Shown: positions 11,298 through 34,684 of the stretch, piece after piece | Layout: each line of letters begins with the position of its first letter | Numbering within the stretch: position 1 is the stretch's first letter | Assembly: GCA_016931115.1 (NCBI GenBank) | Contig: JAFGFM010000143.1 | Location: 1 to 36,780 of the forward strand | Source of the DNA: Deltaproteobacteria bacterium | GTDB lineage: Bacteria > Desulfobacterota > DSM-4660 > Desulfatiglandales > HGW-15 | Length of the DNA stretch: 36,780 nucleotides | Reading direction: 5' to 3' | Notes under the pieces: generated by a model | What the model was told of the DNA's origin: nothing | The model's input: only the letters and a program-made list of their open reading frames with translations | Databases searched by the model: none | Translations under genes and position numbers: made by a program

Positions 11298-12950
11298 TTA
11301 TTTACCAATCCCATTTGCATAGGAATCTTCGCTGATAACCTCCATCAGTCTGCAATAATGCCACTCCTTATCTTTAGATGTGAGAGTCCCTGCCTTATAT
11401 TTTTCGCATGTACCAGGTTTTTCAAGGGGATATTCTTCCAGCGGGTCGTTATCAAGATCATAAAAGGTACAGTTTTTATCTTCAAACCCGCCCGCACATA
11501 TCACCTTGTATCTTGCATTACGAGCGCCTACATGCTGTGTTCCATTTGTCATAAGATTTATGGATTCTGAAAGTACAAATCCCCTGTCAGGGTCACGCAC
11601 TCTATCCTTCTTACCAAAAATGATTGGAGACAATGATACAGAATCAAGAGAAACCATCCAATTCCCTTCACTGTTGCTTACCTCTTCAGGTAACTTAAGC
11701 CCGGCAATGGAAAGCACGGTAGAAAAGAGGTCTGCCACATGGATTATTTCGCTATTCTTTGAACCCGCCTTAATCTCCGGACCCTTAATTACCATAGGCA
11801 CAAGCGCCCCGCTTTCAAAGGTAGTACCCTTTCCACGTCCCTTTCTGGTGATATACATATTGTCTATATACTCAAGCCCTTGTCTTTCATACATAGGTGT
11901 GCCGTTATCACTTACAAAAATAACATAGGTATTTGGATCAAGGGCATTTACTGCATCAAGCAGTTTGCCTGTAATGGTATCAAGGGAATTCGTCATTGCC
12001 CTCATAAGTGATTCATCACTGCAATTACCGGCACTGTTAGATCCGAACTGCCCGCCGCATGCCTTCATCTCTTCAATGCTTTTGGCATCCATTGTATCCA
12101 TATTGGGTACGGCCATTGCATTAGGTTGCTGGATAATAGTGGTATGTGACAGGTTATATGCAACCCATGCAAACCAGGGTTTATCAGGGGTTTCCCTTTC
12201 TTTTTTTGTAATCCACTCTATTGCATCAGCAATCTTTACAACAGGTGAATAGTTGGTTGGTGCTATGCCTGGCAAAGACTTGACAGGGGCTTTTTCAGTT
12301 CTCCAGACATTTGCAGGCGTTTCTTCATCCTGGATATGATAGTCATAATCCCAGAAACTCTTTATTGCAGCATGCAGGTTACCCCTGAAAAGATCAAAAC
12401 CAGCCTCCTTTGGCTTCATACCCGGATAATCAGGTCCATTTCCATTTCCCGGAAGCCCTGCCAGATGCCATTTGCCGAATAATGCCGTGCTGTAGCCGCC
12501 TTCATCCTTTAATTTTTTTACGAAGGTGGTATGTTTTTGTGAAAGTGCATCAGCATAGGTGAGCACCTTTGCCTTTTTACCAAAAAGACCGGTAATGATA
12601 GCCGACCTTGTTGGTGAGCAGAAAGGATGCGCCCAGACATTGGTAAATACCATACCCTCACTTGATAGTTTATCAAGCCTCGGGGTGGAGGCAGGAAGCC
12701 CCCTGATGGATTTATATCCTGCATGATTATGGCCTGATGGCCCGTACTTTTTTTCAAGATCATCTATAAGGCCAGGGTACATGCCAGAGGTGACATCAAC
12801 TCCAAAGTCATCAGCAATAATGAGGAGTATGTTGGGCTGTTTTTGTTTTTCAGGTTTATCACCCATCGCCTGCGAAACAGTGCTAAGGCATATAAGCATA
12901 AAAAAGAGTAATAGACATGGGGTTTTTCCGGGTACTATTATTTTTTGCAT
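11298..12950 (-). CDS. Exported arylsulfatase-type sulfatase
   Basis: The 550-residue precursor has a Sec signal (PCLLLFFMLICLSTVSQAMG). The sulfatase fold follows: NILLIIADDFG with metal-binding Asp47-Asp48, and Cys111-Ser-Pro-Thr-Arg115, the C-x-P-x-R site whose Cys is converted to formylglycine. LFGKWHLAGLPGNG and the VIFVSDNGTPMYERQG metal site are also present. The family hydrolyses sulfate esters in the periplasm, but the substrate cannot be predicted from sequence. Activity needs a maturation enzyme (FGE or anSME), and none is encoded in this window. The start is supported by gagaggag upstream of ATG 12950. A small exported protein gene follows closely. Confidence 0.92.
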   Translation of the reverse strand: MQKIIVPGKTPCLLLFFMLICLSTVSQAMGDKPEKQKQPNILLIIADDFGVDVTSGMYPGLIDDLEKKYGPSGHNHAGYKSIRGLPASTPRLDKLSSEGMVFTNVWAHPFCSPTRSAIITGLFGKKAKVLTYADALSQKHTTFVKKLKDEGGYSTALFGKWHLAGLPGNGNGPDYPGMKPKEAGFDLFRGNLHAAIKSFWDYDYHIQDEETPANVWRTEKAPVKSLPGIAPTNYSPVVKIADAIEWITKKERETPDKPWFAWVAYNLSHTTIIQQPNAMAVPNMDTMDAKSIEEMKACGGQFGSNSAGNCSDESLMRAMTNSLDTITGKLLDAVNALDPNTYVIFVSDNGTPMYERQGLEYIDNMYITRKGRGKGTTFESGALVPMVIKGPEIKAGSKNSEIIHVADLFSTVLSIAGLKLPEEVSNSEGNWMVSLDSVSLSPIIFGKKDRVRDPDRGFVLSESINLMTNGTQHVGARNARYKVICAGGFEDKNCTFYDLDNDPLEEYPLEKPGTCEKYKAGTLTSKDKEWHYCRLMEVISEDSYANGIGK

Positions 12951-23171: not shown

Positions 23172-23629
23172 GCTTGTTTCGTCTTGCCTAATTTTCAATT
23201 AATTAAATCCTTTCATGCATAACTGTGAGTCGGGCTAGTCCAGTGAGTCAGGGATAAGGCCATGCTGTTACCCCTTGCTGATTTTACCCATTAATGATTG
23301 CTTTCGACTTTTAACCCTTTCACATTAACATCCAAGTTCTAAAACTGATGAGTTAATTGATGGGATACAATCTAGATAAAAAGGAATATCATCATATGGT
23401 AGAGACCATAGATCATAATATTTTGCTTTTTTCTCTAATGTCCATTAGTTAAAATTATCCATGTGGAAATTGAGACGATGTTCATTATTATTTTATCCTT
23501 TGAGTGATTAAACTGTTAAGCATTGCCCTCTATTCCGCGTAATGCGTATATGGATTGTGTAGGCCTGTCTAACCCCCTTTAATGGGTACACCCATGCTTT
23601 ACCTATTCAATAATTAAAGACCGATACCA
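23172..23629. other. AT-rich intergenic gap between hydrolase and STAND NTPase genes
   Basis: No open frame with a believable start or family was seen on either strand. It holds two small dyads: tatggt/accata (loop agag, about 23395-23410) and atgggt/acccat (23582-23595). The second lies 35 nt after the NTPase stop but has no T-run. It probably contains the hydrolase promoter and the NTPase 3' region, but I cannot assign either precisely. Confidence 0.5.
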
Positions 23630-26600
23630 TTATTTACTCCTAGCAGTAAAGTCTATCCCAATAATCTCTATTTTTTGAATATTCGGGTGTCTATGTATAA
23701 TTTTTTCTAGGTCTTCTTTTAATGCGTTTACAAAATTTAGAAAAGTCATTGATTTGCTATTATGGACATTTCTCCAATTACTTTTTTTACTTCCATTGCA
23801 GACTATTAGAAAAATACCATATCTTGAAACACGCATGTATTGCCCAATAAGTTGTGTCTCAATACGTTCTATCAATTGTTTGTGTGACCATTTGTCGGCA
23901 ATTTTTAATTCAACAGGAACCGGAGCTGTTACCAAGGGGGCATTAAACCTTATATCTGTTCTTGTTGCATCTGCGAATTCCTCTTCAGAGCCAATTGTAT
24001 AAAGAGATCGGGAGGATTTACGCAACCTGTTTGCAAAAACTGTCCGAATTTCTGTTTCGTTTATTAATCTTTTAAGTAAAACGGCTTCACTCTCATCGCC
24101 ATCTTCTATATCATGTTTCAAATCGTCCAATTGATTCAAGGCGATATTAAAAAGATCACTTTCTGTCCGAGGAGTTGTAAGGAGAGAAAGCGAAAATTCT
24201 GCAACAGAACTCTCTTCCCAGGGTTCAAACTCTGAATCTAGAGATACACGTTCTTTTGCCAAAAAATGCATCCTGTCTTTTAAAAATCTTTTTTTAGAAT
24301 TTTTTGACAGGTGAACCAGAATATCATATGAAGTTTTTCCAGGTGTTTTATAAACCAACTCCAATAAACGCGATCGAGCTTCTTGTGCATGGTCACGTTG
24401 GCTTGGTGTATAAACGCCTGTTTTATGGGGATTATCATCTTCTATTTTAAGAAAATCATAGATAAAAGGAACAAGTTCTTGTAACACCTCTATTCTTTCA
24501 TAATCTCTGTAAGGTGCACTGTATCGTCTATCACCATGGCTTGTGAAAGCTGAACAAAAATCCACCATGGTTTCTATTCTCTCTTTTTTGTTTGAAATGC
24601 TTTCAATCAATTTCTTTAGGGCAGAGAAACCTTTCAGCCCGTCTATATAAAATAAAGCAATAAGCCATGTAATTTTTCGTTTTTTTTCTGTAGCGGCCTT
24701 AAACCGGTTAGAGGCAAGTTTTATTAATTGATTATTTATATCCGCTTGTCTTTGCTCCATTAAGATGATTGATATTGCATTGTCAAAAACGATATCATTA
24801 ACAGGCTCTTTTTCCTTGATAAGCTTAAGTATAATGTTTATATACCTTTCTTCTACATCTTTTCCATACCTTAATGCAGACAAAGTATGTGCATGGTTTT
24901 CAGTCGCTGGGTTATCATGAAACTCATATTTTAGTTCATTTTGAATAACCTTTTTAACAATATTAGGAAATGCCCTTTGCAGATCACCAAACCATGATGG
25001 AAAACCATTTAGCTCAAAGAGAGAATAATGGGCGGCTATTTCTGCTTCATCTTTGGTTAATTTACTAGACCATTCTGGATCATCATGCGACTCAATTGAA
25101 AGGCCTGTTAAACCTATTATCCTAGCCCATGGGATAGTACTGCTTGTTCTCCTTTCCGCATAACTAAATGGATCATATTTACGCCAATATGCAACGCAAC
25201 CATCTCGAAAATTTTTTGCCACCTCGAATCCGAATTCTTTTTCAAGAGAATGCCAATTTGAATAACTCCAGCTATGACTTGATCCCTTATTTGTTTCCTT
25301 TAACCGTTCGTAAAGATAAACAGATCGTGAAAATATTTCTCCTTTATGTGCATCACCTAATTTGTTAATTTCACCAGGATTTTTTTTCAGTTCTTCTGCC
25401 CATTCTATACGATTATCCACCTGTTGCTTTTCTCGCCTTTTTTGACTTTGTTTTCTATCTTTCTCACGCTTATTCCATTTTATTTGTTCTTCTGTTAGCG
25501 TTGGGTGTAAAAATTTCAGAAATTCTTTTTCAAGAGAGGGTATCCCTTTGACAGATTGCTTGATACGTTCTCGCAACTTCTTTGGCTTTTTTTCGTTTAC
25601 ATAAACCTGGAATATCGCTGATAAAATGATCAACTTATCAATCGTCTCATCTCTTTTAAAAAAATCATCAAAGAGAATTTCTAAATTATCTATATTTGGA
25701 GTCCAGAAATTATCTATTTCCCAACTTACCTGCCACCAAGAGGTAGGATTATTGCCATTTTTTCTATTCCGTTCTATGCCTATTGCATGCCAGAATAATG
25801 TATACTTAAATTCTTCCCAGGTATTTACGTTTTCAAGAAGTTTTTCCCGGTCATGGAAATAGTAATCGATATTATGTCTGGCAATTATAAAATTTAAAAA
25901 CAGATCCAGTATCATCGGTTCAAGCGAATAATAATATCTCTGCTTTATGAGAATATTTGAGAGTCTTACTGCTACCGGTAACAACCAAAAATATTTATCA
26001 GAGATCTCACAATTGTAAGTATTTATGAATGGTTGTTTCTTAAGAAGGATATATAATCCCTGTATAAGTTTTATAATATCTTTTTCAGATATAACTGCTT
26101 TATCGATCATTTCTTCTAAATGAAATTGAAGGGATATTGATGAGTCTTTATCAGGTTGCTTAACAATCTTAAAAATCTTTAAAAGTTGTGAGATTGATAG
26201 AATGTCAGGAAAGAAGAGACTACAAATTTCCCCAACTAGTGCAGAATCAAGATGGTTAATATCATTACTAAGTGCTTTTACCAGATTTTGTTTCTGCCTG
26301 GTTGTACCACTGGAGGCAACAGCTCGTAGTGCGAGTATCCTGTTATAGTTTTTTATTTGGTTGTCAATAGCAAAAGATATGGCAATTTCTGTGCTGTCGG
26401 ATATCTTTCCCTGCCATATTATTTTTAAAAGCAATGAACAAGTATCATCATTGTTTCTATATTTTTTTAGCAGTTTATTAACTGTGGATGACAATGAAGG
26501 ATCAGCTAGTCGCCTAACCATTGAAATATCAAACGATGTCCCGGTATATTCTCTATCAGAATAATACTCTGCAAACTCAACCAGAAGTGATTTCCTGAAT

Positions 26601-27937
26601 TCTACAGGTAATGAGGATGGATCTCCATGCTCAATAAGAACTTCAGGTGCGATTTTTCGTATCTTGTTTTTTATCTCATCATCCCATAACGCGATCCATG
26701 CAGCTATCGGTCTCATAGAAGGAATAACAACCTCAACACCATACTTCTCGTTAAAAATAATACCTTCTATGAATCGTCTTGATCTACCTAAATTAATGAG
26801 TCTCCTAACCCAACTAGAAGCCAGGTATTCGCGGACAGATCTTTCATGAAACTTTTCAGTGCCATATATTGCCACATCAAAAATTGGTCTATCCAGAAGA
26901 ATTTGTATTTTATCAGATGCCCATTCAGGAAGTGCTTCTTTTGGGTTTATTGATATATTGTCTAATTCACAATCTATCGGTATATCAGGCAGTAGAAAAT
27001 AATTTTTCTTTAATAATGTCACTGCCGCAGCAAGTCGCTCAGCCCCAAATAAAGCATCTTCGGGGGATAAGGGTCTCGCTTCATCACGATTAGGGTCCAT
27101 TTCAATGAGTTTCTTTTGTATATTGAATTCCAGCATTTCATAATGTGAACCAAGTTGATTGTTTGATTTCCAGAAGGAAATTAAATCCAACAGGTCTTGT
27201 GGCCGCTCTGCAAATATTTGCGCATCTGATCTCTCAATCGCTTCAATAAAACTACTTGTATTTTCAATGCCTTTATATGAAGCATACTTTTTTATCTGCT
27301 GGTTATCAAGGGGAGCAAGCTGGAAGACCGCATGATTTTTTGAATCTCTAGTTCTATTGATATGCTCTGTGTTAGTTGAAATATTATCTTCACCTTCTTC
27401 ATCATCTTCAGATTTGATTTTGGGAAAATACCTTAAAAATAAATTTAAATCAGCTGTTGCTCTCCAGTTACTGACCCTGCAAGAAATGAAAATTTTTGCC
27501 CTATCTAAATTATTAACGATAGCACTTGAAAAATGATTAAGTGCCAGTTCATATGCATTTCGTCGGGTTAGTCGTGCCTCATCAACTGAATCCAGAAAGA
27601 AATAGGCTATTTCGTTACACGCCCTCCAGCTATCTAATTCCTGAGATGAACCAATTTCAATAGCACCGTGGAGACCAAAATCATTAATAGCCTCTATCCT
27701 GTAAAAAAAGGCTAATTTATTATCTTTACGTAATTTTTTAGCAGCCTCCATTAATTCTGTAGTTTTACCTGTACCTGGTTCTGCAAGTATTACAACCCTA
27801 TCTTTCTTAAACAACTCATCCCATAAATATTCTTTCCCAATTCCAAATGAAAAAAGAACTCGTACATTCTCAGGGTCATTTTCTTTATCTGCTTCCACAG
27901 GCCAGAATTTTCTATTTAAGTCTATGTAATCGATCAT
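23630..27937 (-). CDS. Giant STAND/NACHT-like NTPase with C-terminal PD-(D/E)xK-like nuclease domain
   Basis: ATG 27937 gives 1435 residues; a TTG at 27976 would add 13. Neither has a clear Shine-Dalgarno. The NTPase is at the N-terminus: Walker A AEPGTGKTT (residues 52-60), Walker B FFLDSVDEA (Asp116, Asp119-Glu120, NACHT-style), and a sensor-like IFISCRVSNWR. FHERSVREYLAS, a motif of NACHT/STAND winged-helix regions, follows near residue 370. A long helical region of about 900 residues, HEAT/TPR-like and including a basic coiled coil (KREKDRKQSQKRREKQ), could be the sensor. The C-terminus reads TDIRF (Asp1328), PVELK (Glu1343, Lys1345) and QLIGQY, the core of a PD-(D/E)xK nuclease. Such proteins act in bacterial immunity by sensing and cleaving; that role is inferred. 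It lies 83 nt after a dCTP deaminase gene. Confidence 0.85.
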   Translation of the reverse strand: MIDYIDLNRKFWPVEADKENDPENVRVLFSFGIGKEYLWDELFKKDRVVILAEPGTGKTTELMEAAKKLRKDNKLAFFYRIEAINDFGLHGAIEIGSSQELDSWRACNEIAYFFLDSVDEARLTRRNAYELALNHFSSAIVNNLDRAKIFISCRVSNWRATADLNLFLRYFPKIKSEDDEEGEDNISTNTEHINRTRDSKNHAVFQLAPLDNQQIKKYASYKGIENTSSFIEAIERSDAQIFAERPQDLLDLISFWKSNNQLGSHYEMLEFNIQKKLIEMDPNRDEARPLSPEDALFGAERLAAAVTLLKKNYFLLPDIPIDCELDNISINPKEALPEWASDKIQILLDRPIFDVAIYGTEKFHERSVREYLASSWVRRLINLGRSRRFIEGIIFNEKYGVEVVIPSMRPIAAWIALWDDEIKNKIRKIAPEVLIEHGDPSSLPVEFRKSLLVEFAEYYSDREYTGTSFDISMVRRLADPSLSSTVNKLLKKYRNNDDTCSLLLKIIWQGKISDSTEIAISFAIDNQIKNYNRILALRAVASSGTTRQKQNLVKALSNDINHLDSALVGEICSLFFPDILSISQLLKIFKIVKQPDKDSSISLQFHLEEMIDKAVISEKDIIKLIQGLYILLKKQPFINTYNCEISDKYFWLLPVAVRLSNILIKQRYYYSLEPMILDLFLNFIIARHNIDYYFHDREKLLENVNTWEEFKYTLFWHAIGIERNRKNGNNPTSWWQVSWEIDNFWTPNIDNLEILFDDFFKRDETIDKLIILSAIFQVYVNEKKPKKLRERIKQSVKGIPSLEKEFLKFLHPTLTEEQIKWNKREKDRKQSQKRREKQQVDNRIEWAEELKKNPGEINKLGDAHKGEIFSRSVYLYERLKETNKGSSHSWSYSNWHSLEKEFGFEVAKNFRDGCVAYWRKYDPFSYAERRTSSTIPWARIIGLTGLSIESHDDPEWSSKLTKDEAEIAAHYSLFELNGFPSWFGDLQRAFPNIVKKVIQNELKYEFHDNPATENHAHTLSALRYGKDVEERYINIILKLIKEKEPVNDIVFDNAISIILMEQRQADINNQLIKLASNRFKAATEKKRKITWLIALFYIDGLKGFSALKKLIESISNKKERIETMVDFCSAFTSHGDRRYSAPYRDYERIEVLQELVPFIYDFLKIEDDNPHKTGVYTPSQRDHAQEARSRLLELVYKTPGKTSYDILVHLSKNSKKRFLKDRMHFLAKERVSLDSEFEPWEESSVAEFSLSLLTTPRTESDLFNIALNQLDDLKHDIEDGDESEAVLLKRLINETEIRTVFANRLRKSSRSLYTIGSEEEFADATRTDIRFNAPLVTAPVPVELKIADKWSHKQLIERIETQLIGQYMRVSRYGIFLIVCNGSKKSNWRNVHNSKSMTFLNFVNALKEDLEKIIHRHPNIQKIEIIGIDFTARSK

Positions 27938-27981
27938 TTTTATGTTTAATTTATTGTTAATACTTTTGAATTTCAATCGGC

Positions 27982-28018
27982 AAAAAAACAGCCAGTCGCA
28001 CTTAATTGCCTGGTTGTG
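27982..28018 (-). terminator. Weak terminator or attenuator between dcd and the NTPase gene
   Basis: On the minus strand acaaccag and ctggctgt pair with one mismatch around a 14-nt loop, followed directly by seven T residues. It lies 2 nt after the dcd stop codon. It may end part of the dcd transcript, so the NTPase would be made at a lower level by read-through or from its own start site. Confidence 0.5.
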
Positions 28019-28020
28019 AC

Positions 28021-28542
28021 TTATTTTTTAAAATCTCTGTACAATAAACTGGGTTGAATGCCATGGTTGTTCTGATATTTACTACTTGAATATTCTTCAT
28101 ATTCCCCTTCAATAGTATGGTAATAAATCTGGCAAACTTCCACACCTGAATAGACTCTTATGGGTTGAATGCTGAATATTTCCAGGGTCCAGAATCCTTT
28201 GAAACCAACGTCACCAAATCCTGCTGTGACATGTATAAAAAGCCCGAGTCTTCCTACTGAGGAACGACCTTCAAGCATAGGAACTAAATTATGTGTTTCG
28301 GTATATTCAATCGTTCTTCCAAGATATAGTCGGCCTGGTTCCAATACCAACCCTTCTTGAGGTATAGATAATTTTGCAAACTTATTAGCTTTTTTCATAT
28401 CAAGTGGAAAATCATCATACACTAAAAGTTCATCATGCAATGACAGGTTGTAGCTATTCGGATTGAGTTTGTTTTTATCATACGGGTCAATGATGATATC
28501 ATTGTCGATCCTTGAAGCTATTTCTTTTCCTGACAGAATCAT
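28021..28542 (-). CDS. dcd: dCTP deaminase (Dcd/DCD-DUT family)
   Basis: 173 residues matching the trimeric dCTP deaminase/dUTPase fold: MILSGKEIASRI start, LNPNSYNLSL, GRLYLGRTIEY, GRSSVGRLGLFIHVTAG (92-108, nucleotide binding) and the catalytic Glu121 in GFWTLEIF. The C-terminal SKYQNNHGIQPSLLYRDF segment closes over the nucleotide. It converts dCTP to dUTP, possibly onward to dUMP. Housekeeping versions feed dTTP synthesis. Related enzymes also act in antiphage defence by draining dCTP, and this one is followed by a STAND NTPase gene in an AT-rich region. Sequence alone does not separate the two roles. Start ATG 28542 has a ggaaaggga Shine-Dalgarno, and a good promoter lies 70 nt upstream. 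Confidence 0.92.
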   Translation of the reverse strand: MILSGKEIASRIDNDIIIDPYDKNKLNPNSYNLSLHDELLVYDDFPLDMKKANKFAKLSIPQEGLVLEPGRLYLGRTIEYTETHNLVPMLEGRSSVGRLGLFIHVTAGFGDVGFKGFWTLEIFSIQPIRVYSGVEVCQIYYHTIEGEYEEYSSSKYQNNHGIQPSLLYRDFKK

Positions 28543-28611
28543 TTATTTCCCTTTCCTTTGCTTCTGATGCGCAACAGGCATTAATACGATTCTTGTTTTG
28601 TAAAATTGGGC

Positions 28612-28640
28612 ATTATTAAAAAGAACCGGTGTCATGTCAA
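28612..28640 (-). promoter_or_regulatory. Sigma70-type promoter of dcd
   Basis: On the minus strand a perfect TTGACA (28635-28640), a 17-nt spacer and AATAAT (28612-28617, five of six matches). The predicted leader is about 63 nt. This is the strongest promoter signal seen for the dcd-NTPase pair. Confidence 0.7.
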
Positions 28641-28650
28641 CAGGATATTA

Positions 28651-28686
28651 TGGAAGCTTTCAGCGTTCAGCTATCAGCTTTCAGCC
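28651..28686. repeat. Second copy of the gctgatagctga-type repeat
   Basis: The minus strand contains gaaagctgatagctgaacg flanked by a further gctgaaagc, matching the segment at 10781-10807. It sits between the dcd promoter and the mutL remnant. Confidence 0.45.
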
Positions 28687-28718
28687 AAATCTTTTTTAAA
28701 TGCCTTTTACTAACCCGC

Positions 28719-28810
28719 TTACCCTATCCTCTTAAACACCTTTTCAAGCTCAGTATAGCTGATCTTTTTATAGACTGGTCTGCCATGCGGGCAGTTGGTT
28801 GCCGGATCAA
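28719..28810 (-). repeat. Detached copy 1 of the mutL 3' end
   Basis: The minus strand encodes DPATNCPHGRPVYKKISY and continues to EKVFKRIG and a stop. It is colinear over 92 bp with the last 30 codons of the intact mutL (32798-32889), with roughly a dozen substitutions and no indel. There is no start codon or upstream mutL sequence. Together with the promoter and repeat at 28612-28686 and the terminator that follows, it fills the 28543-28931 gap. Confidence 0.9.
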
Positions 28811-28876
28811 ATAATAAAAATGGGGCGCTGTTGTTATTAGGTTTTACCATCAAACCTTATAATCTCACAACGCCCC
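28811..28876 (-). terminator. Long imperfect hairpin terminator of the M48 peptidase gene
   Basis: Arms ggggcgctgttgttatt-aggttt (28822 onward) and the complement of aaaccttataatctcacaacgcccc (to 28876) form a stem of about 23 pairs with a few mismatches. On the minus strand it is followed by atttttattattt. It lies 55 nt after the peptidase stop codon. Confidence 0.7.
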
Positions 28877-28931
28877 AGTTTATAACTATTCTTAGGCAAA
28901 CGGATCAACCTGCCTATTTTTTAAACAGCAT

Positions 28932-30284
28932 CTATTGCGACTTCTCTTTTACCACTCCCCAATTTACCAGGCATTGGTATGCATGCTGCGCCTGCTCACC
29001 TTCTGTGACCTGCTTGAGATATCGGGAGTAATCTTCGGCTGATTTTTGCCTGTTGCCCATTCCCTCATAGGCGTAACCCCTGAAAAAAAGAGTGTTAGGA
29101 TTTCCAGGCAGCTTCTTCTCATAGAGATTAAATTCTTCGATTGCATTATCAAACTTCTTCAGTTGGATATGAGAAAGCCCGCTCATATGGTTTGCCTGTG
29201 CCTCACTAGGATATACCTGCCTGGCCTGCTCTGAATATTTAAGCGCCTCGCTATATTTTTTTTGTGTATACTGGCATTTTGCCATCATTACCAGCCCCGC
29301 ATAATCTCCGGGTGCAGCCTTTAATCCCTGCTTCAAAAAGTCTCCCGCCTTGTCATATGATTTAGCAGCCATCTGTTCCTCGGCCTTCTGGAAATTCTCA
29401 ATAGCAGGTTTAAGCTTTCTAAGAGGTGAAGTATTATCCATGTATCGCTCACGATACAGAGGCCTTCCTTTAGCATAACTGAATTCAGTATTAGCAAGTT
29501 TCACCGATGTGTCGTAACGCTCCTGACTCATCGGGTGGGTGGAAAAAAGCACTGAAGATATATTTGAATTTCCTTTGCTGAGGCTGTTCAGCATGGTCGC
29601 AAGCTGTATAGAGCCTTCCGCCCCATAACCTTTTTTCACCAGATATGTCATACCCAGATAATCAGCCTCTCTTTCATTGTCCCGGCTATAGCGTGCCAGA
29701 AGAGCGCCTGCCCCCAGCATGCCCAGTTGACTGGCAAGCTGTCCATAGGTTTCGCTTTTGGTGCCGGCATATACGCTGATTCCTCCCGCTACAGCCTGGA
29801 TAAGTGTGCCTTTTGACATCTGTTGAGCAGTATGCCTGGCATTGACATGACCCATCTCATGACCCAAAAGTGCGGCGAGCGCTGCCTCGCTTTCAAGGGA
29901 AAGGAGGATGCCGCGTGTAGCGGCAATACTCCCGCCTGGAAATGCATAGGCATTGATATAGGTTGCGTTGACCCCCTGAAAGGAATATGGCATTTTGGGC
30001 CGATGGGTATAGGGGGCCATTTCTGCCCCGACCTGCTGAATATAACTATTTAATGCCGCATCCTGTAATATCCCGTAGTCTGAAGAGAACTGATGAGGCG
30101 AATTTTGCCTGTCAACCTGTACCTCCCAGTCCTCTGACACCAGCATCAACTGTTTTTGTCCTGTAACCGGGTTAATCGCACATCCGGCAAGGAGACCGGC
30201 TGACGCCAGGGAAGATATCATTATAAATTCACGTCGGCTGTAAAGACCCTGAGATCCCATTCTACCGGTTGAAAATATTGTCAT
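28932..30284 (-). CDS. Lipoprotein M48-family metallopeptidase with TPRs (BepA/LoiP-like)
   Basis: A 450-residue precursor. A twin-arginine-like SRREFIMISSLASAG leads to the lipobox LLAGC (Cys35). The peptidase domain carries AYAFPGGSIAATRGIL, the zinc site HEMGH (His142, Glu143, His146) and a third ligand Glu206 in EREADYLG, then HPMSQERYD. About 150 C-terminal residues form TPRs (for example YSEALKYSEQARQVYPSEAQANHMSGLSHIQ, split over two helices). The family degrades misfolded outer-membrane proteins or helps their assembly. A good Shine-Dalgarno (agagga) precedes ATG 30284. It lies 32 nt after the OmpA-family lipoprotein gene, so both probably form one envelope operon. Confidence 0.92.
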   Translation of the reverse strand: MTIFSTGRMGSQGLYSRREFIMISSLASAGLLAGCAINPVTGQKQLMLVSEDWEVQVDRQNSPHQFSSDYGILQDAALNSYIQQVGAEMAPYTHRPKMPYSFQGVNATYINAYAFPGGSIAATRGILLSLESEAALAALLGHEMGHVNARHTAQQMSKGTLIQAVAGGISVYAGTKSETYGQLASQLGMLGAGALLARYSRDNEREADYLGMTYLVKKGYGAEGSIQLATMLNSLSKGNSNISSVLFSTHPMSQERYDTSVKLANTEFSYAKGRPLYRERYMDNTSPLRKLKPAIENFQKAEEQMAAKSYDKAGDFLKQGLKAAPGDYAGLVMMAKCQYTQKKYSEALKYSEQARQVYPSEAQANHMSGLSHIQLKKFDNAIEEFNLYEKKLPGNPNTLFFRGYAYEGMGNRQKSAEDYSRYLKQVTEGEQAQHAYQCLVNWGVVKEKSQ

Positions 30285-30316
30285 TAAAAATTCCTCTCAA
30301 TAAAGTTCGCGTATCA

Positions 30317-30976
30317 TCACTGGTTCTGAGGGACACGATTCGGGTCAACAGCGATTTTTATCTCAACCCTGCGGTTCTGTGCCTTGCCGTCCGGGGTTTC
30401 ATTTGATGCTACCGGCCTGGTCTCACCATATCCGATCGATGAAAGGCTTGCGATATTTAAATTTTTTCCCCTGAGGTAGTATTCTGCAGCTTTCACCCGT
30501 TTTTCCGAGAGTGTTTGATTGTATGACTCAGAACCATCAGAGTCGGTATGACCTTCCAGCACAACAATATTTTCAGGATAATTAGAAAAAACACCAGCCA
30601 GCTCATTGAGTTTGGTGGCTTCTGCAGGCTTAATGATATCCTTATCCACATCAAAATTGATCTTCAAAGTGGCTTCAATCTTCTGATTTTCCTGGTCTAC
30701 CTTAACACTTTCCATGCCTTGAACCTGCTCCAGTTCCTTTGCCTGATTATCAAGTCGCCTTCCTATAAGGGCACCCACTGCACCTCCGACGACTCCGCCG
30801 ATTACTGCTCCCCCTGTCCTGTGGTCGGATTGATGCCCGATGATCGCGCCAACTGCTGCGCCTGCTGCGGTACCAATACCTGCCCCTTTTGTTGTTCGTG
30901 TGGTTTCACAACCTGTCGAGCAAAAGAGGCCTAAAATGAAAACTAGAATAATTAACAAACAAATATTTTTTCCCAT
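30317..30976 (-). CDS. OmpA-family peptidoglycan-binding lipoprotein
   Basis: 219 residues: a lipoprotein signal (CLLIILVFILGLFCSTGC, Cys23) and a Gly-zipper segment (GAGIGTAAGAAVGAIIGH and GGAVIGGVVGGAVGALIGRR) that may insert into the membrane. An OmpA C-terminal domain follows: INFDVDKDIIKP, VLEGHTDSDGSESYNQTLSEKRV, IGYGETRPVASN and AQNRRVEI, with the Asp and Arg that bind diaminopimelate. It anchors the outer membrane to peptidoglycan. The Shine-Dalgarno aaaggag precedes ATG 30976. It is the first gene of a likely two-gene unit with the M48 peptidase, and a MITE-like repeat lies in its upstream region. Confidence 0.93.
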   Translation of the reverse strand: MGKNICLLIILVFILGLFCSTGCETTRTTKGAGIGTAAGAAVGAIIGHQSDHRTGGAVIGGVVGGAVGALIGRRLDNQAKELEQVQGMESVKVDQENQKIEATLKINFDVDKDIIKPAEATKLNELAGVFSNYPENIVVLEGHTDSDGSESYNQTLSEKRVKAAEYYLRGKNLNIASLSSIGYGETRPVASNETPDGKAQNRRVEIKIAVDPNRVPQNQ

Positions 30977-31037
30977 ATATGTACTCCTTTATAATGTGTT
31001 TAAAATTAAAATAATTGTTACCGGTTGGACCTGATTT

Positions 31038-31113
31038 AATACCTGAATTTTTAACCAGATATCATTGAGCCTTTATCGCCACACGACAAAGCCCGATGCA
31101 AAATTCAGGTATT
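31038..31113. repeat. MITE-like element with 14-bp perfect terminal inverted repeats
   Basis: aatacctgaatttt (31038-31051) and its exact complement aaaattcaggtatt (31100-31113) enclose 48 nt without coding capacity. One end is duplicated at 13142-13160 (19 identical bases, including sequence internal to the inverted repeat). A short non-autonomous mobile element or a folded RNA is possible. No transposase gene is in the window. Confidence 0.6.
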
Positions 31114-31208
31114 TAGAATTCACTTTTAAAGGATTAAAGTATATGAAGTTGAGTATTGTATGTCAATATAAAGGATTTGGATCACCTACAACATACGATA
31201 TCGCGATT

Positions 31209-31934: not shown

Positions 31935-31987
31935 CAACTCCTCTTAAATGCAACAATTCATATTGGTGCGATGTCCTGATAGACCAG

Positions 31988-32079
31988 CTACACTATCCTT
32001 TTGAACATCTTTTCCAGTTCAACGTAGCTGATCTTTTTAAAGACTGGTCTGCCATGCGGGCAGTTGGTTGCAAGATCAA
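31988..32079 (-). repeat. Detached copy 2 of the mutL 3' end
   Basis: The minus strand encodes DLATNCPHGRPVFKKISY and continues to EKMFKRIV and TAG, colinear over 92 bp with the intact mutL end and with copy 1. The match with the intact end extends about 8 bp past the stop codon (agaccagc). It lies exactly between the two toxin-antitoxin modules and has no upstream mutL sequence. Confidence 0.92.
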
Positions 32080-32097
32080 TGTTTTAATATCAACTGC

Positions 32098-32126
32098 TTG
32101 ACAAACGGTATACTAAAAAGTATTTT
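32098..32126 (+). promoter_or_regulatory. Promoter of toxin-antitoxin module B
   Basis: A perfect TTGACA (32098-32103), 17-nt spacer and TATTTT (32121-32126). The spacer and -10 contain the dyad atact/agtat, a likely site for antitoxin autoregulation. A ggagg Shine-Dalgarno precedes ATG 32155. Confidence 0.7.
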
Positions 32127-32154
32127 GTTATTACATATTATTTGGAGGTATATC

Positions 32155-32391
32155 ATGATCATAGCAAAGACTACTGAAAAGGGTCACGTTATAATCCCTG
32201 CATCACTCAGGAAGAAGTATGACATTAAAAAGGGAACCAGGATGGCTATATCAGAAGGAGAAGGGAATGTGATTATAATCAAGCCAATTCCGGATGATCC
32301 TATTGAGGCATCAAGGGGTATACTGAAGGGAAATACCTCTCTAACCAAGGCGCTATTAAAAGACCGGGCAGAAGAGGCAAAAAATGGATAA
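32155..32391 (+). CDS. AbrB/SpoVT-type antitoxin (module B)
   Basis: 78 residues; ATG 32155 follows ggagg by 6 nt, whereas the frame extends further upstream without a Shine-Dalgarno. The N-terminus is a swapped-hairpin AbrB domain (KTTEKGHVIIPASLRKKYDIKKGTRMAISEGEGNVIIIKPI, here interrupted only for display by the conserved turns). The C-terminus (GILKGNTSLTKALLKDRAEE) is the toxin-neutralising segment typical of VapB paired with PIN toxins. It overlaps the toxin gene by 8 nt and probably represses its own promoter. Confidence 0.92.
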   Translation: MIIAKTTEKGHVIIPASLRKKYDIKKGTRMAISEGEGNVIIIKPIPDDPIEASRGILKGNTSLTKALLKDRAEEAKNG

Positions 32392-32785
32392 TTCTTATGT
32401 CCTCGACAGCTATGCACTAATCGCACATTTTGAAGATGAAACAAGCGGCGAAAAAGTGAGAAAATTTCTTAAAGCTGCACAAGCCGGAAAGATTAAGCTT
32501 TATTTATCGGTAATTAATCTGGGTGAGATATATTACAATACACATCGAGAGCGTGGCAGTAAAAAGGCTGATGAAGCTGTTTTTATGATTGAACAGTTGC
32601 CTATCACTATTGTGAATGCGGATATGGAAATCACACTTGAAGCAGCAGGGCTGAAAAGTATCCATCCAGTATCCTATGCGGATTGTTTTACAGCAGCCCT
32701 TGGTATAAAGAAAAAGGCTAAAATAATTACCGGTGACCCGGAGTTTAAACTGTTTGGAGATAAGGTAAATGTGGAATGGCTCTAA
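32384..32785 (+). CDS. VapC-type PIN-domain toxin (module B)
   Basis: 133 residues with PIN acidic residues Asp8 (SYVLDSYALIAHFEDE), Glu48 (INLGEIYYN), Asp100 (SYADCFTAALG) and Asp118 (IITGDPEF). The protein is a complete, typical-length endoribonuclease toxin. It is translated by coupling with the AbrB-type antitoxin. It ends 12 nt before the mutL stop codon, in convergent orientation. Its family differs from that of module A (AbrB versus ribbon-helix-helix antitoxin), so the two modules were acquired separately and are not a duplication. Confidence 0.93.
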   Translation: MDNSYVLDSYALIAHFEDETSGEKVRKFLKAAQAGKIKLYLSVINLGEIYYNTHRERGSKKADEAVFMIEQLPITIVNADMEITLEAAGLKSIHPVSYADCFTAALGIKKKAKIITGDPEFKLFGDKVNVEWL

Positions 32786-32797
32786 ATTAAGACCAGC

Positions 32798-34684
32798 CTA
32801 CACTATCCTTTTAAACATCTTTTCAAGTTCAGTATAGCTGATCTTCTTATAGACTGGCCTACCGTGCGGGCAGTTTGTTGCGAGGTCAAGCTGCTGCAAC
32901 TGAGTGAGTAAAAGGCTTATCTCCTTTTCTGTCATCCTCTGCCCTGCCCTTATTGCGCCGTGGCATGCCATAACAGTAAGGAGTTTGTCCATCGCCCCTG
33001 TAGTCGTGAGGTCATCCTCTTCGTGAAGCACAGGGATAAGGTCTTTTAGAAAACTCTCCCAGTTGGAGTTAACAAGAATGGCCGGTACTGCCCTTATGAT
33101 AAAACTGTTTCCGCCAAAGTGCTCTATCTCAAAACCAAGGTTATTGATTTGTTCAAGTTTTTCTTCAAGTATCCTTGTATCCTTATTAGACAGCTCTATA
33201 TCAACAGGTAAAAGAAAATTCTGGCTCTCCATTTTTTTGACCGCATATTTTTGCCTGAGGGTTTCATACACTATCCTTTCATGGGCCGCATGCTGATCTA
33301 TCATTAACAGACCATCCCTATCTTCAAATAGAAGATAGGTGCCCTTGAGTTGCCCAATAATCGAAAGGTTGTCACCGATATTTTCCTGCCTGATTTCTGG
33401 CCTTGCAGGATATGGATCATGGTGAACAGGTTTTTCTTCCCTCACAGGAATTATTACTTCTTGAATTTCCTCCGGTATATATGTCGGCTTTTTATGACTG
33501 AAAAGACCCTGCTGATGCTGTGGAATTGATTCCTTAACTTCAAGTGTTTCTTTAACAGTATTTCCTATCTGATGGTAAACCGGGACAGGCGCATCTTTTT
33601 TTTGCGCTTTATCACCCTCCTGCATTTCAGGGCTGAACAGGGGAGCGGGCCTTTCAATATAAACATCACCTGATGGCCTGAAGGGGTTTATCTGGTCGCC
33701 CAATGCCCTGGCAATGGTTGATGATATGGACTGATAAATGAGCCTCCCATCCTCAAAACGCACCTCCTGTTTTGCAGGATGCACATTGATATCCACAAAT
33801 GCTGGATCAATATCTAAAAAAAGGGCCACTTGAGGGTAACGCCCCTTCATGAGCCGCTGGCCATAGCCCCCTGTTATGGCGCTAAGTACTAGTTTATCCC
33901 TTATGTTCCGGTTATTTACATAGAGATACATGCGGTCACCACGGGTTCTTGAAAACTCAGGCGGAGCCAGATATGCCCTTACAGTAAACCTCTCATGTTC
34001 AAAGCGGGCATCCATAAAAGACTGGGCAACATCTTTACCAAAAAGTGCGGTTAATCTATTGAGTTCAGTCTCTGATGAAGGGAGGTTCAAAATGGCTTTA
34101 CCGGTAAAATTATCAAGTAATTTTATATAGATGCCTGAAAATGGCAAAGCGATCCTTGAAACCGTATCAGTAATCAGGCCAGATTCTGTCTTTTCTGTTT
34201 TAAGGAATTTTTTTCTGGCAGGTGTATTAAAATAGAGGTCTCGTACATCTATTGTTGTGCCTGCAGGGGCACCTGTCTCCTCAACAGACTCTATAACCCC
34301 GCCATTAGCCTTTAGCCTGAATGCAGATATCTGGTCATGGGGCCTGCTGGTTATCTCCATCCTGGAGACAGAGCATATGCTCGGAAGCGCCTCACCCCTG
34401 AACCCCAATGTTTTTATGGTAAATATATCGCTGACTGTTGAGATCTTGCTTGTGGCGTGTCTCTCTATGGCCAGGAGCAGGTCATCCTTGTCCATGCCTG
34501 CCCCATTATCACTAACCCTTATAAGACCGCTACCGCCATCTTCTATGCGAATGGTGATCCTGTCTGCGCCCGAGTCTATGCTGTTATCAAGAAGCTCCCT
34601 TACAACAGATGCAGGTCTATCAATAACCTCACCGGCAGCGATCTGGTTTGCGACATTCTGTGAAAGTTTTTGGATTTTGCCCAT
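32798..34684 (-). CDS. mutL: DNA mismatch repair protein MutL, endonuclease type
   Basis: 628 residues. The N-terminal GHKL ATPase is intact: LSQNVANQIAAGEVIDRPASVV, DNSIDSGA, DNGAGM, RHATSKI and GFRGEALPSI. After a linker of about 100 residues, the C-terminal domain has the metal-dependent endonuclease motif DQHAAHER (463-470). ACHGAIRAGQ and CPHGRP (Cys605-His607) complete the zinc site. Proteins of this type nick the daughter strand in organisms without MutH. Two detached copies of its last 30 codons lie downstream (28719 and 31988). It starts 6 nt after the phospholipase-like gene and lacks a strong Shine-Dalgarno, so coupling is likely. Confidence 0.97.
   Translation of the reverse strand: MGKIQKLSQNVANQIAAGEVIDRPASVVRELLDNSIDSGADRITIRIEDGGSGLIRVSDNGAGMDKDDLLLAIERHATSKISTVSDIFTIKTLGFRGEALPSICSVSRMEITSRPHDQISAFRLKANGGVIESVEETGAPAGTTIDVRDLYFNTPARKKFLKTEKTESGLITDTVSRIALPFSGIYIKLLDNFTGKAILNLPSSETELNRLTALFGKDVAQSFMDARFEHERFTVRAYLAPPEFSRTRGDRMYLYVNNRNIRDKLVLSAITGGYGQRLMKGRYPQVALFLDIDPAFVDINVHPAKQEVRFEDGRLIYQSISSTIARALGDQINPFRPSGDVYIERPAPLFSPEMQEGDKAQKKDAPVPVYHQIGNTVKETLEVKESIPQHQQGLFSHKKPTYIPEEIQEVIIPVREEKPVHHDPYPARPEIRQENIGDNLSIIGQLKGTYLLFEDRDGLLMIDQHAAHERIVYETLRQKYAVKKMESQNFLLPVDIELSNKDTRILEEKLEQINNLGFEIEHFGGNSFIIRAVPAILVNSNWESFLKDLIPVLHEEDDLTTTGAMDKLLTVMACHGAIRAGQRMTEKEISLLLTQLQQLDLATNCPHGRPVYKKISYTELEKMFKRIV

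Follow-up and report, generated by a model that had tools for sequence, protein, structure and literature searches.

The large protein encoded directly downstream of a dCTP deaminase gene (dcd) in the window, the whole stretch of 36,780 nucleotides analysed here, is by family assignment a member of the HyoA family, an antiphage NLR-like protein. The best explanation of the locus, to which a probability of roughly 80% can be given, is that HyoA would act as a stand-alone defence protein and that the adjoining dcd is a metabolic gene sharing the same transferred block of DNA.

Both genes lie on the minus strand. dcd (28021-28542, 173 aa by ORF call) is followed after 83 nt by hyoA, which, in agreement with the family profile match and the homologue alignments, was read as a 1435-aa NACHT/STAND NTPase with a C-terminal nuclease, from an ATG at 27937 to a stop at 23630 (23630-27937). 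The longest open reading frame (23630-27976, minus strand) begins at a TTG and encodes 1448 aa; residue numbers given here for HyoA refer to this version and are obtained from those of the 1435-aa protein by adding 13. The ORF calls confirmed the coordinates, the gap and the length of about 1435 residues proposed in a preliminary description of this DNA. The clear promoter it placed ahead of dcd was also recovered: a predicted sigma-70-like promoter (28612-28640, minus strand; TTGACA-17-AATAAT, 11/12 matches) is located about 95 nt 5' of dcd and ranked first of 31 in the region, and a similar box is seen at the equivalent place in a sibling genome of the same genus (G001). No terminator was found by a scan between dcd and hyoA, and the hairpin in the gap was no better than those of shuffled sequences (z -0.5).

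The large protein matched the NCBIfam model NF058534, 'NACHT domain-containing antiphage protein HyoA', with 1397.7 bits, above the curated cut-off of 1200. Residues 20-1446 aligned with positions 1-1430 of the 1430-position profile, so that the match covers the full length, with the same length and domain order. Some HyoA relatives score 1600-1790 bits against about 1400 here, suggesting a divergent member of the family, and one that differs in having dcd ahead of the gene. The EruA model (NF058535) gave 166.6 bits, with partial similarity that runs from the NTPase as far as the C-terminus; as this is far below its cut-off of 1000, EruA is a sister family to which the large protein does not belong. 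A Pfam scan of the NTPase gave sub-threshold STAND matches only and the PADLOC models gave no match to the protein. A literature search found no paper describing HyoA, so the tested antiphage activity of the family is taken from its NCBIfam name; the names HyoA and EruA are absent from the main text of the DefensePredictor paper. On the strength of the family match the antiphage role suggested in the preliminary description is probable. That description knew of no described system with this pair; the large protein is already catalogued. A single-sequence scan of genome contigs detected no hyoA relatives; an alignment-guided scan, in which each species was represented by one genome, detected 195, the best 80 of which came from Pseudomonadota, delta-proteobacterial MAGs, Cyanobacteriota (Leptolyngbya), Planctomycetota, Chlorobiaceae, Spirochaetales and others. 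Relatives were also present on 62 plasmid records. The present locus extends the range of HyoA, through a divergent member, to a new lineage.

The 627 N-terminal residues from the ATG (26057-27937, minus strand) were modelled with AF2 at a pLDDT of 85.7. The model comprises a NACHT/NLR-like NTPase (NBD-HD-WH) and the start of the helical repeats, and resembles NLRC4, NLRP3, NOD2 and Avs4 (Foldseek, down to 5e-8), with a VIA-align Z of 13.9 over 373 residues for NLRC4. Structural alignment of the NTPase core gave Z 9.9 with Avs4 and 9.8 with EfAvs5. Walker A (GTGKT) and Walker B (FFLDSVDEA) motifs are present and their core residues are invariant across the aligned homologues, consistent with the NACHT-type NTPase predicted earlier at this end of the protein. 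The long helical middle that had been proposed was likewise borne out: armadillo/HEAT-like helices follow the NTPase in the model, and a profile search of PDB sequences matched this region mainly to alpha-repeat proteins.

The C-terminal 209 residues (23633-24259, minus strand) gave an AF2 model with a pLDDT of 83.5. Foldseek matches were weak (best 1.4e-3); the top rows in VIA-align 2 were OkrAI, BstYI, BamHI, BglII and Can2, at Z 8-8.8. The match to a nuclease is convincing mainly because these top rows are PD-(D/E)xK enzymes and because the catalytic set, E1331, D1341, E1356-x-K1358 and Q1375, is invariant in 76 homologues with identity down to 24%. Asp1328, Glu1343 and Lys1345, which the preliminary description had picked out in a PD-(D/E)xK-like end, correspond to D1341, E1356 and K1358 of this set. 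The structural Z-scores are middling (best 8.8), which would be compatible with a catalytically dead PD-(D/E)xK fold acting only as a structural or DNA-binding element, but invariance of E, D, E-x-K and Q at such low identity makes this extremely improbable. Judged by its residue conservation, the C-terminal domain is likely to be an active nuclease.

By analogy with bNACHT and Avs proteins, HyoA most likely works by sensing, oligomerisation and DNA cutting. The helical middle, and possibly the winged-helix region as well, would sense a phage component or a disturbance caused by the phage, and the N-terminal NACHT NTPase would then oligomerise. The C-terminal PD-(D/E)xK domains, once clustered, would dimerise and cleave the DNA of the phage, the host or both, which would bring the infection to an end. 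Avs proteins carry their effector ahead of the NTPase. The antiphage STAND NTPases Avs4 and Avs5, whose NTPase core aligns structurally with that of HyoA, have a different sensor, and the nuclease of HyoA is C-terminal. bNACHT25, also a NACHT protein, has its PD-(D/E)xK domain at the N-terminus and causes degradation of DNA on phage sensing (PMC12169576). It and bNACHT32 combine the same NACHT and PD-(D/E)xK DNase parts as HyoA and are likely to follow the same logic, although their nuclease is N-terminal (PMC12169576). As the usual order in bacterial NACHT proteins is effector first (PMC12169576), the architecture of HyoA is inverted. The C-terminal position of the nuclease, contrasted with Avs proteins in the preliminary description, was correctly seen, but it is a property of the known HyoA family. 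In structural terms the family can thus be read as an NLR-like sensor followed at the C-terminal end by a PD-(D/E)xK nuclease, opposite to the arrangement usual in bacterial NLR proteins.

A block comprising ompA, an M48/TPR protease gene, dcd and hyoA (23328-31173) has 94% nucleotide identity to the sibling genome by blastn. Synonymous divergence (dS) is 0.13-0.19 inside the block and 0.39-0.71 in the adjacent flanking genes; over the wider flanks it is 0.39-1.3 (mutL, plc and radC on one side; duf3307, p149, p463 and cytochrome genes on the other). The lower dS inside suggests that the four genes were recently exchanged between the species or came from a common source, pointing to a recent transfer of the block as a unit, and dcd would adjoin hyoA because both lie on it together with ompA and the M48 protease gene. 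hyoA and dcd have GC contents of 34.7% and 36.0%, and their neighbours mostly 39-48% (mutL 44.7%, M48 gene 47.7%), which, with the transfer signal, agrees with the AT-rich acquired DNA noted earlier. Comparison with the sibling gave dN/dS values of 0.20 for hyoA and 0.07 for dcd, so both genes are under purifying selection and have been kept functional. A second recently exchanged patch was seen at a sulfatase gene (11298-12950), with a dS to the sibling of 0.11 and of 1.3 for its neighbour; mosaicism of this kind is thus not unique to the hyoA block.

dcd matched PF22769 (1.6e-39) and TIGR02274 (109.1 bits, cut-off 92.8), and its best PDB match was the dUMP-forming dCTP deaminase of M. jannaschii (1ogh, 2.9e-21). 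The closest solved relatives are 1ogh and the dCTP deaminase 2qxx; neither is a defence protein, and both are longer (190-204 aa against 173). The HxTAGxxDxGFxG motif is kept and the TLE of dcd aligns with the TLE of 1ogh, which holds the catalytic Glu. On these matches dcd encodes a dCTP deaminase of the dUTPase superfamily, probably a dUMP-forming one. Antiphage dCTP deaminases such as AvcD/DcdV and their relatives are known as members of the zinc cytidine-deaminase superfamily, with a fold unlike that of the dUTPase superfamily; dcd, checked for membership of this antiphage type, matched no PADLOC defence family at E 0.1. The closest four homologues in the phylum (73-75% identity) have no large NTPase adjoining; their neighbours are a CoA ligase gene and M1-peptidase-like, pyrF-, clpB- and purA-like genes, all but the first named by eye from the sequence. 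The remark in the preliminary description that dcd may simply be housekeeping agrees with these neighbourhoods and with the PADLOC result.

The genome holds a single dcd, a point on which a check had been proposed; the second PF22769 match is a dUTP diphosphatase (a dut gene elsewhere in the genome). dcd is found in only 2 of 61 close relatives, a rarity that housekeeping genes do not usually show. This patchy distribution, the dut gene, and the existence of similar enzymes on Bacillota megaplasmids (65-67% identity) and of more distant ones on phages would fit an independently acquired accessory cargo on a mobile block, with no role in hyoA function and not required by the host. Such an origin is possible but doubtful, since dcd is the sole copy and is under strong purifying selection (dN/dS 0.07); both points make a use in thymidylate synthesis probable. 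Most likely, therefore, dcd is an ordinary metabolic gene contributing to the thymidylate supply of the host. Of the dcd genes on plasmids and phages, six plasmid loci were read, and these showed neither an annotated giant NTPase of the HyoA kind alongside nor a consistent defence context.

The remaining question is whether the two genes form a system. In the two-layer pairing originally proposed, Dcd would deplete dCTP and the NTPase-nuclease would cut DNA, both being expressed from the dcd promoter. The shared strand, the 83-nt gap, the strong promoter found only ahead of dcd, the AT-richness of both genes, their retention in two species after moving as a block and the absence of dcd otherwise from the family are all compatible with this. 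However, a search by tblastn and with a profile of 24 Dcd sequences found no dcd at the 93 other HyoA loci examined, of which 79 reach 1.5 kb or more upstream. Two HyoA-bearing relatives (G014 and G040) lack dcd and have only a dut-like match, and another (G159) has HyoA plus an unlinked dcd. The relatives of dcd lie in metabolic contexts, dcd has no PADLOC match, and the transferred block also carries the ompA and M48 genes. Joint defence by the two genes is consequently very improbable. It is just as hard to credit that HyoA in this genus recruited a dUMP-forming Dcd as a co-transcribed helper, nuclease and depletion together forming a lineage-specific cassette. More generally, a local functional link between dcd and hyoA is unlikely, and their adjacency as a conserved two-gene defence system is not supported. 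Lack of adjacency elsewhere and a single dcd had been named beforehand as signs against the pairing, and both were largely what was found, the exception being the sibling, the only other genome with the pair. The tempting 'dCTP deaminase + STAND nuclease' system can thus be struck from the list of candidates. Among 131 immediate neighbours of HyoA genes, which include known or candidate defence proteins, no Pfam family was represented by more than three, which leaves HyoA without a fixed partner and probably working alone.

Further features were seen in and around the block. A MazE/AbrB-like antitoxin and PIN toxin pair (VapBC-like, 32068-32785), in keeping with the toxin-antitoxin neighbours noted previously, lies between mutL and a second copy of the mutL 3' end and is missing in the sibling. 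In the sibling, hyoA is directly followed (L006:13025-13943) by genes for a Phd/YefM antitoxin and a ParE toxin and by one that is HicB/CopG-like; the corresponding place in the window is taken by an alpha/beta hydrolase gene. The last 100 bp or so of mutL occur in three directly oriented copies, 86-88% identical (32790-32889, 31981-32079 and 28713-28810), with no further copies elsewhere in the genome; one flanks the MazE-PIN pair and another is found immediately ahead of the dcd promoter. The pattern suggests a site at the mutL 3' end at which insertion or recombination has taken place repeatedly. A resembling case was seen in another genome (G093:C1), where a remnant of 27 residues from the 3' end of dcd (347055-347135) lies about 3 kb behind an intact dcd (343643-344161).
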